A stretch of DNA of 22,345 nt from a virus. Below are positions 1-21,417 of the stretch, in pieces (the stretch's first letter is position 1; every line of letters begins with the position of its first letter). Made by a program: the position numbers and the translations under genes. The notes under the pieces were generated by a model, which was not told the DNA's origin, did not search any database, and was given only the letters and a program-made list of their open reading frames with translations. Location: the IMG/VR virus record IMGVR_UViG_3300044641_004693, positions 1-22,345 of that record; one strand, given 5' to 3'.

Positions 1-1132
1 GATACTGCTTGAGATCAAACATGTGTGGCAATAACACACGTTCCAGTTCACTTTGTAGGGCTCTTGCGCCGGTGCCAGATGTAATTGCACGGTCTACAAT
101 GGCCAAAATAGCCTGATCATCAAAGGCCAAATCTACTCCGTCCTGCTGAAACAACCAACGATACTGATCAATCAAGTTGTTTTTTGTTTCAATCAAGATA
201 CGCACAAGATCTGCTTTGTCCAGCTGCTGTAGGGCCACTGTAACTGGAAAGCGTCCAACAAATTCTGGAATCAAGCCAAATTTGACTAGATCGTCTGGGG
301 TGACTGTGCTGAGATCCACTGCGACATTTTTTGACTGCACATCTTTGCCAAATCCAATGCCACCGCCCACTGTACGTGCTTTGATAATTTTGTCCAGGCC
401 CACAAATGCACCACCTGCAATAAACAAGATATTGGTTGTATCAATTTCGACCATTTCACCCGATGGATGTTTGCGACCACCCGACACTGGCACACGACAT
501 ACAGTGCCTTCTACCATTTTTAGCAGGGCCTGTTGTACTCCTTCTCCCGACACGTCTCTGGTGATGCTGGCACTTTCACTCTTGCGTGATATCTTGTCAA
601 TTTCATCCACATATACAATACCACGCTGTGTCTTTTCCAAGCTGTTGCCGGAGTTGGCGTACAGTCTGGCAATAAGTGTTTCGACATCGTCGCCCACATA
701 ACCAGCTTCAGTGATACTGGTGGCATCAGCAATGGCAAATGGTACATCCAAGTACTTGGCAATGGTACGAGCCAGCATGGTTTTGCCGCAGCCACTGGGG
801 CCTACCATAAGGATATTGGCCTTGTTGATTTCGCGGTCGGGGTCTGAATTTGATATGCGTTTGTAGTGATTCACAATGGCCACTGCCAAGGTCATCTTGG
901 CTTGGATTTGCCCAACCACATATTGATCCAGGTATTGTTTTAGCTTCTTGGGATCTTGGCCATCTGCTTGTTGTTTTTGCACAGCATCAGCAGCATCATC
1001 GTTTTTCAGCAGGTCTTGGCAAAGATCCACACACTCGTTACAAATTGCCACTTCGTCACTGACTATCAACTTCTTTACTTCTTCTTTCTTCTTACCGCAA
1101 AAACTACACACATTCTTCAGTGTATCTGACAT
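1..1132 (-). CDS. clpX: ATP-dependent Clp protease ATP-binding subunit ClpX (C-terminus cut by window edge)
   Basis: AAA+ unfoldase that feeds substrates to the ClpP peptidase. I translated 377 codons from the ATG at 1132 with no stop; the reading frame runs off the window, and E. coli ClpX is about 424 aa, so little is missing. Visible in order: N-terminal zinc-binding domain (C9, C12, C31, C34); Walker A GPSGCGKT at 111-118; pore loop GYVG at 144-147; Walker B VYVDEID at 173-179; RKH-type loop at 220-222; IGF tripeptide at 259-261, the loop that docks on ClpP in characterised ClpX; arginine-finger segment IPEFVGRFP at 288-296; sensor-2-like GTGARAL at 353-359. All key motifs are intact, so it should be active and able to bind ClpP. 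Its ATG directly follows the TAG of the upstream gene (TAGATG), which suggests translational coupling. No clpP is seen here; the partner would be host ClpP or a phage gene elsewhere. Confidence 0.95.
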
Positions 1133-2893
1133 CTATTGACCTTTTGGTTTTAGTTTCAATTCAATTTGTTCTTGCTCAGCAGGACTCAGTAGTTCAGGAT
1201 CGTACTCACCGGTCACTATCTTGTCCATGAGGTAATCAATATATGCTGTGTTGTAAGCATAACTGTCTGTGAGAGTTTTGTCAACTTCTATCCACTTGGT
1301 TCCGTTGTATTTGAACAACTTGCTAGGTATATATCCTGTGTGCAGGAACTGATAACCTTTTACAGCATTGTCTGGCAACACCTGGCCAAATGGTGTGTGC
1401 TCAGTTTCGGGTAGATACGTTTCCCAAGGCAGGTGATCGATTGTGCCTTGTGCCAGTAAGTGTCGCTGTTCTTTTAGGGTCTTGTCGGGATGGTCGGCTT
1501 TCCACTGACGCTTGGCTTCTTTGATAGCAGCAGTTTCTTCCGGAAGGTCGTCAAAGTCTTCTTCCAGAACAGGCTCAGTTTTTTTTTGATCCAGATTCTG
1601 TAGTGCTTCAAGCTGGGCTTTTCTTCGGCGTCTTACACGGTTTCTTGGTCGTCTGGGTACAGGCTCATATTTGACAGAGGTTCTGACAGGGTTAGGTGGG
1701 GTGGGTTCTGTAGTAGGGGTCGCAGGAGGCGGAGGTATAATACCACGTACCCAACTTCGGCTTTCTGTGGCAGCCAACAGCATCATAACTGCCAAGGGAT
1801 CAAACACAGCCACAATTAAAATAATGACCCAGCGCACTGCTTTTTCCAATATAGTCTGATCTGTGGTATCGTATATGAGTTCAGCAATATATTTAATGGG
1901 GCCAACTTCAACTTCCAACTTGCGGAACTCGGCCTGCAGTTCATATTTTTTCCGGGTTAGAGATTCTATTTCCGTCGTGGCAGCCTTGATTCGATCCTGT
2001 TGCTCGTTGACCAAAGTTTCGACTGACGCTGTGTCGCCTTTGCCCAGTTGATTACGCAAGCGATCAATAAGTCGGTTTGATTCTGTGACCTGTGCTTCTA
2101 CTGTGCGCCGTACTCGAGCGATTTCTTCTCTGGCAGATCGTATGGTGGGATTGTTATTGGCCTGTTCCAGTTTCTCTACAGCCGCATCACGTTCTCGAGC
2201 ACGAGCAGCTTGCCAGTTTCTTACTGCTGCCGCAGTGCCAGGCCCCCAGTTTCCATCAACTGCTGTGCCCACCAAGGCCTGTGCTTTGTCAATCGCTTTG
2301 GCATCGATAAACCCCTGTAACTGTTGGGATTGTTGATCTATCTTGGCAATCTGATCTTGGTATATTTTTGTCTGTGCGTCAATGATCTTGTTTTGTTCAT
2401 CGATTGCCGGCTGTACACGGGCTAAAGCAGCATCAATACGATCTTGTTCAGTTTTAATCTGGCTGTTGACGTTGGCATCAGCACCAGTGCCGGTAGTTTC
2501 TAGTGTTCGAGCACGTGATTCGGCCTTGGTTACTATGTCTGCTTGTCGGCCAAGTTCGGCTTCAATGCGTTGTAGTTGTGCAGCGTTTTCCTGTCCTTGA
2601 CCTACCTGTTCAATGTGTGCTTTACTGAGGAATCCAAATATGCCCATACTTGTAATAAACATCAGGATGACCACGCTGGGTATTAGATATAGCCGCATGG
2701 CCCACTTGACCCGGCTCCAGTATTCGTGTAGCCATACAGTAATGGTCAACTTGGCCACTTCTAATATGGTGCCCATGATCACGACTGGAATCACTGACGC
2801 AGCGAAAATGGCTGTGAGTCCAACAATGGAATAAAAAGCAGCCACAGCACTAAGGCAAAGGGCTACTACCAGCATGAGATAAGTTAGGAACAT
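1133..2893 (-). CDS. Membrane-anchored coiled-coil protein with a peptidoglycan-binding-like motif
   Basis: 586 aa, function unknown. Three hydrophobic segments lie near residues 5-30, 31-55 and 66-90. A long Gln/Glu/Arg/Ala-rich coiled-coil region (about 95-330) follows, then a fourth membrane segment at about 352-376. A Pro-rich linker (PPPPATPTTEPTPP, from about 387), a basic RRPRNRVRRRRK stretch and a charged C-terminal domain complete it. Inside the coiled coil, at about 204-230, AQALVGTAVDGNWGPGTAAA resembles one PG_binding_1 repeat (the dG.wGp.T.aAv..wQ pattern). If that motif binds cell wall, the coil between membrane segments 3 and 4 would face the periplasm. The ATG at 2893 lies 6 nt after the upstream stop with no clear Shine-Dalgarno; the stop abuts the clpX start. 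Roles in lysis, superinfection exclusion or membrane remodelling are guesses. Confidence 0.85.
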   Translation of the reverse strand: MFLTYLMLVVALCLSAVAAFYSIVGLTAIFAASVIPVVIMGTILEVAKLTITVWLHEYWSRVKWAMRLYLIPSVVILMFITSMGIFGFLSKAHIEQVGQGQENAAQLQRIEAELGRQADIVTKAESRARTLETTGTGADANVNSQIKTEQDRIDAALARVQPAIDEQNKIIDAQTKIYQDQIAKIDQQSQQLQGFIDAKAIDKAQALVGTAVDGNWGPGTAAAVRNWQAARARERDAAVEKLEQANNNPTIRSAREEIARVRRTVEAQVTESNRLIDRLRNQLGKGDTASVETLVNEQQDRIKAATTEIESLTRKKYELQAEFRKLEVEVGPIKYIAELIYDTTDQTILEKAVRWVIILIVAVFDPLAVMMLLAATESRSWVRGIIPPPPATPTTEPTPPNPVRTSVKYEPVPRRPRNRVRRRRKAQLEALQNLDQKKTEPVLEEDFDDLPEETAAIKEAKRQWKADHPDKTLKEQRHLLAQGTIDHLPWETYLPETEHTPFGQVLPDNAVKGYQFLHTGYIPSKLFKYNGTKWIEVDKTLTDSYAYNTAYIDYLMDKIVTGEYDPELLSPAEQEQIELKLKPKGQ

Positions 2894-2899
2894 AGTTGA

Positions 2900-3238
2900 T
2901 TATTTACCGCTAAAATGCTTGACTTCACTGGCCACTTCTATACTGTACTTGACCGATATCCAAGTGGCAAAGGCCGGATCTGGTACTTCAAACCAAATGT
3001 AGTCTGGCATGTTCACAAACATCCATTGTTGTATGGCCTGACTGAGATTTTTTGCTCGCTTCCATCTCTTTAAAACATTGCGTTTGGCCCGCCAGTTACG
3101 ACCATACAGTTGTCGACATTCTGATATTACCGCATACCACTGAGTGGGCCCGTGTATTTTGAACCAAAATCTGTGCAGTGGCGGGGTCGTTACTTTAAGT
3201 GGATCCAGTGACATCGACATATTATAAGAGGTCTCCAT
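2900..3238 (-). CDS. Hypothetical protein, 112 aa
   Basis: Not recognised. A basic, aromatic-rich soluble protein: a Trp/Arg/Lys-rich middle (NWRAKRNVLKRWKRAKNLSQ) and a C-terminal segment with IWFEVPDPAFATWIS. The composition would suit nucleic-acid binding, but no motif is diagnostic. It starts at ATG 3238, immediately after a TAA stop (TAAATG), and ends 6 nt before the 586-aa membrane protein, so it belongs to the same minus-strand operon that leads to clpX. A second in-frame ATG at codon 7 has GGAG upstream and could be the real start. Confidence 0.7.
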   Translation of the reverse strand: METSYNMSMSLDPLKVTTPPLHRFWFKIHGPTQWYAVISECRQLYGRNWRAKRNVLKRWKRAKNLSQAIQQWMFVNMPDYIWFEVPDPAFATWISVKYSIEVASEVKHFSGK

Positions 3239-10166: not shown

Positions 10167-10206
10167 GTATTTCTCTCGTAAGTTGTATATTTATCGAGAG
10201 AAATAC
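10167..10206 (-). promoter_or_regulatory. 12-bp perfect inverted repeat enclosing the late promoter and covering the PAAR ribosome binding site
   Basis: Arms 10167-10178 and 10195-10206 (GTATTTCTCTCG / CGAGAGAAATAC) with a 16-nt loop. On the minus strand the downstream arm is the Shine-Dalgarno region of the PAAR gene. A transcript coming from the upstream oxygenase gene would fold the whole hairpin. Confidence 0.85.
10188..10195 (-). promoter_or_regulatory. T4-type late promoter GATAAATA for PAAR
   Basis: The octamer is GATAAATA followed by TACAACTTA. By the T4 rule, transcription would start near 10182, giving a leader of about 17 nt that lacks the upstream hairpin arm and leaves the ribosome binding site free. 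Confidence 0.7.
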
Positions 10207-10213
10207 AGGTGTA

Positions 10214-10861
10214 TTATGTATTGGCCAGTTGTGCAAGATACTGGTCAGTAGCCGGAGTTCGAACACCAGTTACTTGCAGCGTTACTCTTGGGTGATGGCT
10301 GGCATTGGCTGTGGCATGTGGTAGATTTTGCCAATCAAATGTGGTCACTTCGCCGGCACGCCAACGACTATGGCAGTAGTTGCCATAACTCCAAAACTGT
10401 CCAGATTCCCAATCAGTCAGCTGTATTTGTACACGAAGCACACTGTCGGGATCGTCGGGATTCCACTTTTCCAACTTGTCCAGGTGCAGGTTCCAAACTT
10501 GACCAGGCATTTGTACGTGAATACGAGCCATGGAATCTTCCAAGGCAAAGCGGTCAGCAATATCTTGTAACACAGGAGGAATTGCCCAGTTGAGATTGCT
10601 AATCACATAGTCTTTACCGTAGCCTTCACGTTCCAGGTCGTAGTCTTCAGCGGCTAGTTCTTCTTCAGGACGGCTTTTGCCCGCAGCACCCCGTGTGCGC
10701 CAAGTAGCAGACCGCGAGTTGGCCACAATGTCTGCCAACTCTGAATCCCAGCAGGGTTCAATAAATCCCAAGCGCACAACACGATCTTGATCGGGATCAA
10801 ATTGTTGATTATCAAAATGATATTGACTGCGTTTTTTTGTTTCGTCCCAGGAGCTTTTCAT
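10214..10861 (-). CDS. 2-oxoglutarate/Fe(II)-dependent oxygenase
   Basis: 215 aa. Expected to hydroxylate or otherwise oxidise a substrate using 2-oxoglutarate and O2. The double-stranded beta-helix signature is complete: iron ligands H126-x-D128 (NLHLDK) and distal H182 (NLPHATAN), and the 2OG-binding R192 (HPRVTLQVTG). The segment VLRVQIQLTDWESGQFWSYG matches the strands between them. Substrate not deducible; it could be a protein side chain, a nucleotide or a small metabolite. ATG 10861 overlaps the upstream sulfotransferase-like stop (ATGA), so it is the last gene of the tctA-tctC cassette. Phages of marine bacteria often carry such oxygenases. Confidence 0.88.
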   Translation of the reverse strand: MKSSWDETKKRSQYHFDNQQFDPDQDRVVRLGFIEPCWDSELADIVANSRSATWRTRGAAGKSRPEEELAAEDYDLEREGYGKDYVISNLNWAIPPVLQDIADRFALEDSMARIHVQMPGQVWNLHLDKLEKWNPDDPDSVLRVQIQLTDWESGQFWSYGNYCHSRWRAGEVTTFDWQNLPHATANASHHPRVTLQVTGVRTPATDQYLAQLANT

Positions 10862-11472
10862 ACGACTGTTACCTCTATGTCTGATTTTTTATAACTTTGA
10901 TAATACTCCATTGGCGGTGGTTCGATACCCAAGGTTCTTGCCAAGGTCAGGTTGTCACCAATGTAATAGCTGTCTTTCCATGCTGCCAAGATGTCACGAT
11001 TTTGATCTGCAATGATGCCGGCCATGTTTCTTAAGTTTACGTAATACTTATCATATTTGGGGTATGTGATGTCAAAGTGTCCGCACTTGACCCACCAGCC
11101 CAGGCAAGCATCGTCGTTTCTGTGTACCAGAATAACAGGACACTCGGGCCAATGCTGCTTTAAGAAATCAATATGATGCGCAAACACATGACTCTTAACA
11201 ATGCGTACACCTTCACCTGAAAATGGACGATCAAATTCTGCTTCACATTCAGCTTTGGTATATTCGTTTAGTCGATCAAAGAATCCGCCAAATTCCATGC
11301 CGGGATCAAAGTATGCGCCCATATGCATCAAATGTGGTTCTCCCCAAGCACTGTGCCAGTATTCGCGTTCAGGACTTGCGTCACTACGATCGATACTGGG
11401 ACTAAAGTAAATGTTCTTGCTGACACTGGACCACTTGGATCCCGGTGCACCTGCCATAAAAATATATTTCAT
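10858..11472 (-). CDS. Sulfotransferase-like protein
   Basis: 204 aa. It resembles PAPS-dependent sulfotransferases: a P-loop-like 5'-phosphosulfate segment near the N-terminus (MAGAPGSKWSSVSKNI, 6-21) and a 3'-phosphate-binding-like stretch (VILVHRNDDACLGWW, 113-127) preceded by the IVKSH strand (91-95). The P-loop GAPGSKWSSVSK departs from the usual GxPRSGTT, so PAPS use is not certain. Substrate unknown. It overlaps tctC upstream and the oxygenase downstream by 4 nt each (ATGA), so all are translated together. Alternative: a kinase-like P-loop protein. Confidence 0.7.
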   Translation of the reverse strand: MKYIFMAGAPGSKWSSVSKNIYFSPSIDRSDASPEREYWHSAWGEPHLMHMGAYFDPGMEFGGFFDRLNEYTKAECEAEFDRPFSGEGVRIVKSHVFAHHIDFLKQHWPECPVILVHRNDDACLGWWVKCGHFDITYPKYDKYYVNLRNMAGIIADQNRDILAAWKDSYYIGDNLTLARTLGIEPPPMEYYQSYKKSDIEVTVV

Positions 11473-12530
11473 TTGATCACCAATTCAGGTTTGTAAACGC
11501 TTTTGAATTGATAAGCATTGTCGTGCCACCAAACCAAAGTCTGCAATTTTTTCTCAGTGATATTTTTACGCAAGCGATCTACAACTTGATTACCGTCTGC
11601 GCCGACAATCCATGTGTAACGACCCGAGTCTGCTTCTAATGCTTTGACTGCGTCGGGATCGGCTAACATACTGCGAAGTGCTGCTCGCAATTTTTCTGCA
11701 TTGGGATTACCTTTGTTTACCCACAAAGCCTTTTGTAACACATCTCTAAAGTTTCTTTGCAGTGTATACGCTTCATACAATTCGCCACGAGGCTCTTGTC
11801 CGTATATGCGTTTGAAGACATCTTCAAATCGAAAACCTGGAGGAAAGTTAGGATCTTCTTGCTGCTGACCTGTTGCTAAATCTAACACACCGTGGTGATA
11901 CCAAATCTTGCTGTCGGGTTTGTTGACATAGTGTTTGATCCAAGCAGCCGGTGTTTCTCTCACTGTGTTGAGTTCTCCTCGCTGATATGCCAATCTGCGT
12001 TCTGAACCTTTGATTCCGTTGACCCAGGTCACATGTTTTTTCCAACATGCCAGGTAATTTTCTTTCTTGGGCAAGTTGCCGCAGACCAGCATGGCAATGG
12101 CCATGCCGTCGGGTTCAAGTCCCGAGCCACCAGCAATACGTATACGATCACGTTCAGGATTAGTTGTAGCTGCATGTCCTAATACAATGTTGAGATTCTG
12201 CATGCCAATGGAATCGTAGTGCTTGTAGTCATAGTCAATTTGGTCTACCAGATAACTGACGCCGTTGCCGCCGTGGCTGACCATGATCACTTTGGGATCT
12301 GTTCTTAGCTTGTTGTGAAACTCGTTAAAGCCAGGAATGTCTTTGGCCCCAGGAATGTGCTGGATTACAATTTTTTCTCCCAGATGCTTTTCTAAATGTC
12401 GGGCAACAATGTTGGCCCAAACACTGGTGCCACCTCCGGGTGCCTGTGGTACAATCATGCGATACTCAGCATGTGCTGTGCTGACTACAACAGCCAATCC
12501 AGCAATGATCAATTTTACTATGTTGCGCAT
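11469..12530 (-). CDS. tctC: Tripartite tricarboxylate transporter periplasmic binding protein (TctC/Bug family)
   Basis: 353 aa. The signal peptide (1-22, MRNIVKLIIAGLAVVVSTAHA then E) is followed by the Bug-family start YRMIVPQAPGGGTSVWANIV, where the G-rich loop binds the carboxylate ligand. Length is slightly above the usual 320. It should capture a di- or tricarboxylate or related organic acid in the periplasm and pass it to TctA. Shine-Dalgarno AAGGAGATTAAT overlaps the tctA stop; the gap is 11 nt. It also overlaps the sulfotransferase-like gene. The middle region (about 150-230) is less like ordinary Bug proteins, so the ligand cannot be guessed. Confidence 0.85.
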   Translation of the reverse strand: MRNIVKLIIAGLAVVVSTAHAEYRMIVPQAPGGGTSVWANIVARHLEKHLGEKIVIQHIPGAKDIPGFNEFHNKLRTDPKVIMVSHGGNGVSYLVDQIDYDYKHYDSIGMQNLNIVLGHAATTNPERDRIRIAGGSGLEPDGMAIAMLVCGNLPKKENYLACWKKHVTWVNGIKGSERRLAYQRGELNTVRETPAAWIKHYVNKPDSKIWYHHGVLDLATGQQQEDPNFPPGFRFEDVFKRIYGQEPRGELYEAYTLQRNFRDVLQKALWVNKGNPNAEKLRAALRSMLADPDAVKALEADSGRYTWIVGADGNQVVDRLRKNITEKKLQTLVWWHDNAYQFKSVYKPELVIK

Positions 12531-12541
12531 ATTAATCTCCT

Positions 12542-13981
12542 TTAATGATATGCTAACCCGCGATTGGGTCTAAAAATACTGTAAGTTACAATGACTAGAG
12601 AAATAACGGTTAGAGACACAAATATGGGTCGTGTTGCCAATTCGTTTATGGTGTACAAGGCTTGAGTTTGCTGAATGTAATTTTCCAGTTTCTCTACCAG
12701 GATAAATGCCACCATCACTGCTGGGCGTGAGATACCAAATTTTTTGCAAGCCACGCCCAACACACTGCACAATGCCAAAATATAAAGATCGTTCACAGTT
12801 CCAGTGTATTCCAAGCAACTCCATACAATAATGGACAAGATCACAACAGCGTAAATCCAGTAGGGTATTTCCAGCAGCTTGACCACAATGCGTGTGGTAA
12901 ACATTGCAATAAAAAATGCTAATACCGTGCTGGCAATAAATGCTCCGCCCAGGCTCCAGAAAAATGCAGTGTCTTTGAGTGTTTCAGGTGTGCCCAATTC
13001 CATTCCAAAGTAAACACATATGGCCATCATAATGGCTGCAAATGGTGCACCAGGGATGCCAAACAACACAGTAGGAACCATGCTGGAAGCTTTTTGTGCA
13101 TTGTTGGCACCTTCGCAGCCCAGCAAGCCTTTGATGTTGCCGTTGCCAAATGTTTCTCGGGGATTCTTAGCCACTGTGGCACCATAGGCCATGATGTCGC
13201 CTACCGATCCACCAATTCCTGGCAGCAGGCCTGAAACAAATCCAATGAATCCACCACGCAAAACTTCACGCCAATGCATCACACAATCTCTGAACCCACG
13301 AAACAGTTGCGGCCAATAATCTGTAATGGGTTCTGGGCGTACTGCAGATTTTCTAAATCCCGACATGACTTCTGGTATACCAAACAAGCCAGCAATCAAA
13401 GGAATCAATTGTATGCCGGCTCCGAGATATTCCCAACCACCGGTATAACGCACAACTCCCGTGGCAGGGTTTTGCCCAATCATACCTAGAAAACAGCCCA
13501 GGCCGATGGCCACCAAACTCAGCAGCACATTTTTGCTGGTAATGAATCCCACACAGGCCAGTGCCATCAACATGAACGCCATAAACTCCGGAATACCAAA
13601 TACCAATACCAATTTGGAATACCATGGCATCAGTGCAAATGCTATTGTGCCCCACAGCACTCCGTTTACAGTGGAATCCATAATGGCAATGCCAATGGCA
13701 CGAGCAGCCTGTCCTTGCTGCGACATCTTGTATCCATCAATAATGCTGGCAGCGGTGGAATTACTACCGGGTATTCCGGTCAAGATACTGGTGAAACTGT
13801 CGCCAGTTGACGATGCTGCTATTAGACTGGTTAAAAACACAATGCCCAAGTAAGGATCTGCAAGAAAGTAACTGCTGAGTCCAAACACAGTTAATAAACC
13901 TGTGGTGGCCCCAGCCATTGGCATGATGCCAATAATCATTCCATAAACAGTACCAAGCAGGCACCAAATCACATAATCCAT
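12542..13981 (-). CDS. tctA: Tripartite tricarboxylate transporter large membrane subunit (TctA family)
   Basis: 479 aa, about a dozen hydrophobic helices. Ion-coupled permease that takes a carboxylate from TctC. Family signatures are intact: GIPGS at 69-73, GLLPGIGGSVGDIMAYG at 251-267 and the CEGANNAQKASSMVP ... FGIPGAP segment at 289-313, matching the EAANNA ... LGIPGs motif of TctA. Length matches the usual 500. The small subunit TctB (about 150 aa, four helices) is not encoded anywhere in this window, although the next gene is directly tctC. The start ATG 13981 is preceded by 115 nt of AT-rich intergenic DNA holding a late-type octamer. Confidence 0.9.
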   Translation of the reverse strand: MDYVIWCLLGTVYGMIIGIMPMAGATTGLLTVFGLSSYFLADPYLGIVFLTSLIAASSTGDSFTSILTGIPGSNSTAASIIDGYKMSQQGQAARAIGIAIMDSTVNGVLWGTIAFALMPWYSKLVLVFGIPEFMAFMLMALACVGFITSKNVLLSLVAIGLGCFLGMIGQNPATGVVRYTGGWEYLGAGIQLIPLIAGLFGIPEVMSGFRKSAVRPEPITDYWPQLFRGFRDCVMHWREVLRGGFIGFVSGLLPGIGGSVGDIMAYGATVAKNPRETFGNGNIKGLLGCEGANNAQKASSMVPTVLFGIPGAPFAAIMMAICVYFGMELGTPETLKDTAFFWSLGGAFIASTVLAFFIAMFTTRIVVKLLEIPYWIYAVVILSIIVWSCLEYTGTVNDLYILALCSVLGVACKKFGISRPAVMVAFILVEKLENYIQQTQALYTINELATRPIFVSLTVISLVIVTYSIFRPNRGLAYH

Positions 13982-21392: not shown

Positions 21393-21412
21393 ATACCTAT
21401 TTGATTAGGTAT
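21393..21412 (-). promoter_or_regulatory. 7-bp inverted repeat covering the tail fibre ribosome binding site
   Basis: ATACCTA (21393-21399) and TAGGTAT (21406-21412) with a 6-nt loop. On the minus strand the downstream arm carries the AGG of the fibre Shine-Dalgarno and the upstream arm overlaps the last bases of the late octamer. Confidence 0.7.
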
Positions 21413-21417
21413 TTATG
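21410..21417 (-). promoter_or_regulatory. T4-type late promoter CATAAATA for tail fibre
   Basis: CATAAATA followed by CCTAATC; it also includes the TAA stop of the upstream exonuclease. A start near 21404 (T4 rule) would give an 18-nt leader without the 5' hairpin arm. Confidence 0.7.

Follow-up and report, generated by a model that had tools for sequence, protein, structure and literature searches.

A copy of clpX cut by the end of a viral contig raises two questions: does the gene belong to the phage, and, if it does, with which ClpP would its product work? The window, by which we mean the whole stretch of DNA under analysis, is the entire IMG/VR record IMGVR_UViG_3300044641_004693, with a length of 22,345 bp.

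A canonical ClpX at the edge of a contig

An earlier note, made from the letters alone, had proposed that this end of the window encodes a phage ClpX that keeps the zinc domain, the Walker motifs, the pore loop, the arginine finger and the IGF loop. All of them are present (Table 1), and the gene is confirmed as that of a canonical ClpX with every motif intact, including the claimed ClpP-docking loop. Despite the truncation, the protein scores 530.9 bits against the ClpX equivalog profile NF003745 (cut-off 359) and 507 bits against TIGR00382 (cut-off 370.75). Pfam recognizes zf-C4_ClpX (54.7 bits, cut-off 27), AAA_2 (104.4 bits) and ClpB_D2-small (28.4 bits), and solved ClpX structures align with residues 8-375 (phmmer E about 1e-127). 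Since the ClpX proteins of its relatives are about 400 residues long, and the full protein is estimated at about 401, the missing C-terminal residues reflect the end of the contig and not a broken gene. At the other end, where the start of clpX was said to be fused to the stop of a membrane coiled-coil gene, the two codons abut directly: the ATG stands immediately 3' of the TAG, with zero overlap, and AAAAGGT lies just upstream.

Table 1. Positions of the features discussed in the text, in the numbering of the window.
Feature	Positions	Strand	Details
clpX	2..1132	(-)	377 aa; ATG at 1132; open at contig end, ~24 residues missing
Sensor-2 arginine R357 (TGAR)	62..64	(-)	ClpX motif comparison
Arginine finger R294 (VGRF)	251..253	(-)	ClpX motif comparison
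IGF ClpP-docking loop	350..358	(-)	ClpX residues 259-261
RKH loop	467..475	(-)	ClpX residues 220-222, present in window
Walker B VDEID	596..610	(-)	ClpX residues 175-179
Pore-1 loop GYVG	692..703	(-)	ClpX residues 144-147; unchanged in 96/96 viral ClpX
Walker A GPSGCGKT	779..802	(-)	ClpX residues 111-118
Zinc-binding domain of ClpX	1031..1108	(-)	C9/C12...C31/C34; PF06689 54.7 bits
Membrane coiled-coil protein gene	1133..2893	(-)	586 aa; phage-specific, unnamed family; directly upstream of clpX
Small conserved gene	2900..3238	(-)	112 aa; upstream of membrane gene
NATAAATA late-promoter motif	10188-10195	(-)	just upstream of PAAR gene
NATAAATA late-promoter motif	21410-21417	(-)	just upstream of pectate-lyase-like gene

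The motifs were compared with those of 80 bacterial and 96 viral ClpX. The zinc cysteines are present in all 80 bacterial and in 95 of the 96 viral sequences. Substitutions in the Walker B motif or in the IGF loop of close relatives would have spoken against the proposal of the earlier note, by its own account: Walker B is conserved in 96/96 viral ClpX and an IGF-type loop is retained in 95/96. The sole viral sequence without the loop is L029:7968-9125; in the record that carries it, 125 kb long, no ClpP was detected, and the gene cluster described below is absent too.

The RKH substrate loop behaves differently: it is found in 80/80 bacterial sequences but in 65/96 viral ones, and in the remaining 31, about a third, it is changed to RKN, KKS, RRG and others. 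Judging from these changes, the divergent viral ClpX may select other substrates.

Viral or bacterial origin

The closest relatives of the window's ClpX are viral: the contigs L002 and L003 encode proteins with 93% identity, followed by sequences at about 70% and lower. Bacterial ClpX reach 50-56% identity at best among the matches listed, in a scan that takes one genome per species and samples the bacteria sharing short peptides with the window's protein. The phylogeny against bacterial ClpX that had been proposed as a check gives the same picture: in a tree of 177 ClpX sequences, that of the window does not fall among bacteria but pairs with L002 within an all-viral set, and viral and bacterial sequences lie on opposite sides of one branch with an SH-aLRT of 99, in a tree built by a quick method and with some viral rows on very long branches. 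At the DNA level, the clpX genes of the window and of L002 show 84.7% identity; dN is 0.046 and dS 0.90, which gives dN/dS about 0.05, and the protein is therefore under strong purifying selection.

The T4-like major capsid protein Gp23 was found in 9 of the 21 records searched, mostly large relatives, and in none of the control genomes; none was found in the 22-kb window. ClpX is nearly universal among bacteria, and the contig also carries tctA/tctC-like genes of bacterial type, but the idea that clpX is bacterial contamination or a recent host capture has next to no probability and is ruled out by the identities (93% viral against 56% at best for bacteria among the matches listed), by the virus/bacteria split in the tree (SH-aLRT 99), and by a gene order common to contigs bearing Gp23.

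The neighbourhood of viral clpX genes

Two scans yielded 96 distinct viral ClpX loci, whose neighbours were sought with profiles derived from the first set. Upstream counts refer to the 89 loci whose sequence extends 2.5 kb or more upstream of clpX, and downstream counts to the 78 loci that extend 4 kb or more beyond it. In 85/89 loci, clpX is preceded on its own strand by a homologue of the membrane coiled-coil gene, a slightly conservative figure given that the distance rule misfiles L155, where the genes overlap. The distance is within 60 nt in 54 loci, between 61 and 900 nt in 13, and larger in 18. No other neighbour of phage ClpX is as constant as the membrane gene. On the other side, the gene for ribosomal protein bS21 directly follows clpX, within 60 nt and on the same strand, in 64/78 loci; Hsp20 is found in 66 of the 78, and ClpS in 67. 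The proteins of the closest relative are recognized by Pfam as bS21 (49.1 bits), HSP20 (60.6 bits) and ClpS (78.8 bits). The cultured Salicola phage SCTP-2 has the membrane homologue, ClpX, a bS21-like protein and ClpS, and also encodes ClpP. The window lacks bS21, hsp20, clpS and clpP because it stops inside clpX, and these genes are assigned to it by synteny with its relatives.

When the search is anchored on the membrane protein, clpX is found downstream in 31 of the 71 loci with enough downstream sequence, and is absent in 40. Many of the loci without it read membrane gene - bS21 - Hsp20 - ClpS: ClpX is optional within the cluster.

Several loci carry unusual genes in this region. In L307, a gene that reads as DnaK-like (635 aa) lies 406 nt after the membrane gene and before hsp20-clpS, in the position occupied elsewhere by clpX. 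In L231, the stretch 637-2260 nt beyond the membrane gene contains a GMP-reductase-like gene split over two reading frames, the second of which has an intein-like C-terminal end (VVVHNS) followed by the remaining enzyme. Downstream of ClpS, L007:8538-11404 and L019:11584-15669 contain genes that read as CsgF-, CsgG-, curlin- and FecR-like; related curli-like clusters, named in the same way, stand near a CHASE2/adenylate-cyclase-like gene in L030 and L046. No tRNA or tmRNA gene was found near the cluster, either in the window or in 60 loci. In L223 (Pelagibacter phage Mosig), a tmRNA (ssrA) gene at 10260-10598 stands about 3.3 kb away from the homologue of the membrane protein; ssrA tags count among the classical substrates of ClpX.

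Late-promoter motifs and other genes of the window

The T4-type late-promoter motif NATAAATA occurs upstream of hsp20 in 61 of 77 cases, against 77 of 1011 for other genes. It is found at 28 of 87 membrane genes, mostly 10-16 nt before the start, which is an odd spacing, and at 1 of 94 clpX genes. Since the signal is clear only upstream of hsp20, we do not claim late expression of clpX.

The window also contains, at 11469-13981 (-), a TctA gene (PF01970, 307 bits) preceded by a gene for a TctC-like binding protein: these are parts of a tripartite tricarboxylate transporter, on a phage contig. BLAST finds no relatives of them among the viral loci fetched, and phage records reach only about 26-28% identity.

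The membrane coiled-coil protein

The steadiest neighbour of phage ClpX has no curated family name in the Pfam or NCBI profiles. Its N-terminal transmembrane helices, one of which extends into a long coiled coil, are followed by a final transmembrane helix and a tail; by the positive-inside rule, the coiled coil would be periplasmic and the tail cytoplasmic. The predicted fold of the full protein is poor (pLDDT 66.5, pTM 0.29); an AF2 model of a shorter homologue, from 83 rows, reaches pLDDT 81 and pTM 0.64. A search of the PDB with the latter gave no match at E<=0.001, and the clear fold matches of the family are unnamed or uncharacterised viral proteins. Weak Pfam matches to DUF4407, tetraspanin and PG_binding_1, and a weak PHROG match at the C-terminus of 12/18 members, serve as leads only. 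The 112-aa gene that precedes it in the window has BLAST relatives in 11 fetched loci, where they adjoin the membrane gene.

It is tempting to conjecture that this protein is a dedicated phage partner which tethers phage ClpX, or ClpXP, to the inner membrane, for instance through its tail; during infection, the tethered complex would act on proteins of the membrane or on those involved in entry or lysis. We know of no dedicated ClpX membrane anchor of such a kind, and consider this rather improbable. The family is broader than ClpX, so its function is not necessarily tied to ClpX. The homologues in Pelagibacter phage Mosig and in Flavobacterium phage immuto have no adjacent ClpX and stand near cell-wall hydrolase genes, which makes a role in lysis or in the envelope possible.

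Which ClpP?

The earlier note had suggested searching for clpP elsewhere in the genome. The search found none in the window or in the 34-kb relatives; viral records may be fragments, and the absence of a gene is weak evidence. The gene does appear in a contig that overlaps the closest relative and, often twice per record, in 27/31 large viral records, which were selected chiefly by length; in the first set, in which many records are short, 10/31 have it. The closest relative shares 80-87% DNA identity with the window, and its contig stops 13 codons into a gene. Contig 3300021963_007743, retrieved by an exact 31-mer scan, has a 6,668-bp overlap with it, at 99.5%, and runs on into ClpP2, in the orientation of clpX and about 8 kb downstream of it. 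The lack of clpP in the window is thus best explained by truncation.

Two types of ClpP can be distinguished, a canonical one scoring 203-277 bits and a diverged one scoring 92-110 bits; the record G004, for example, has two ClpPs by Pfam, at 261.8 and 107.6 bits. The Ser, His and Asp of both types align with those of solved ClpPs. Full-length ClpA is encoded in 12/31 large viral records, and ClpX, ClpA, ClpS and ClpP occur together in all eight records of at least 200 kb.

We thus consider it probable, on the strength of sequence and gene order, that the window's ClpX serves as the unfoldase in a Clp protease system that the phage itself owns, within a translation and proteostasis cluster of large T4-like phages. 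It is encoded in tandem with the inner-membrane coiled-coil protein, and its relatives show a cluster that runs membrane protein - ClpX - bS21 - Hsp20 - ClpS, with one or two ClpPs some kilobases on and ClpA often elsewhere in the phage genome. ClpX hexamers would most likely dock through the IGF loop onto phage ClpP rings, possibly also onto host or mixed rings, and would, in the course of infection, unfold and degrade proteins alongside phage ClpA-ClpS-ClpP, Hsp20 and bS21. The phage would thereby take control of three processes at once: translation through bS21, folding through Hsp20, and turnover through ClpXP and ClpAPS. This reading presumes that the window's own genome carries ClpP and that phage ClpX pairs with it; substrates and timing are presumed likewise.

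A first rival holds that phage ClpX mainly docks host ClpP and so redirects host proteolysis, as the earlier note had suggested. The half of that suggestion that concerns docking stands, the IGF loop being intact, and host and phage ClpP could mix; the choice of partner fares less well, for the closest relative, through its overlapping contig, and most large relatives encode their own ClpP, often two. For the window, this rival is unlikely. In the clade around L024, the search of ten contigs of up to 158 kb found no ClpP above the family cut-off, and the IGF-type loops are retained: phage ClpX is thus not always accompanied by phage ClpP, and this clade is the most plausible candidate for the use of host ClpP, a better one than the window's ClpX.

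A second rival takes ClpX as a chaperone or remodeller that acts without ClpP, in replication or in virion assembly. ClpX can indeed remodel proteins without ClpP, for example Mu transposase, and clpX adjoins topoisomerase genes in some jumbo phages, including SCTP-2. Roles in replication or assembly have also been proposed for jumbo-phage ClpX (PMC6102473, PMC7824862). However, the docking loop, which is required only for ClpP, is kept in all but one of the 96 viral ClpX, and the single loss, in L029, is found in a record without a detected ClpP; we regard this second rival as very unlikely.

With a phage-owned Clp system as the preferred reading, what looked like a phage copy of ClpX becomes part of a conserved translation and protein-quality-control cluster of large phages, in which an uncharacterised membrane protein is singled out. 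Since the docking loop is common to lineages with and without detected ClpP, whether phages replace or borrow host proteolysis is now testable.

Comparison with known systems

Bacterial ClpX, from E. coli and others, have the same catalytic, pore and docking motifs as the window's protein; they differ in that the latter belongs to a separate viral clade, in which about a third of the sequences, the window's excepted, lack the RKH motif. Published work already covers phage ClpX as well as jumbo phages that encode several Clp proteins (PMC6102473, PMC7824862, PMC11242549): ClpX, ClpA, ClpB, ClpP and ClpS are annotated in Agrobacterium phage Atu_ph07 (PMC6102473), and ClpA is a core gene in another aquatic jumbo lineage (PMC12619734). 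ClpX also occurs in Bacillus phage G, PA5oct and Lak phages. Like the window, the jumbo phages Atu_ph07, Sinorhizobium phage AP-J-162 and SCTP-2 carry a full phage-borne ClpX, whose identity with the window's protein does not exceed about 55%. In SCTP-2, the order membrane homologue - ClpX - bS21-like - ClpS is that of the window's relatives; jumbo-phage annotations list the membrane homologue as a hypothetical protein.

In the parts of the bS21-phage studies available to us (PMC9723584, PMC6375957), aquatic phages have bS21 with Hsp20 and Clp genes, as here; a count of the genes within ten of bS21 gives Hsp20 (n=127) and two Clp protease groups (n=50 and 47) (PMC9723584). The five clades described in those parts have bS21 beside capsid genes and on the opposite strand, whereas in the loci analysed here it comes after clpX, with both genes on one strand; we found no mention there of the pairing of ClpX with the membrane protein, nor any description of this pair in the open-access literature. 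Phage ClpX and bS21-Hsp20-Clp neighbourhoods are thus known; the membrane gene, for which we found no description, joins them as a strongly conserved partner gene.
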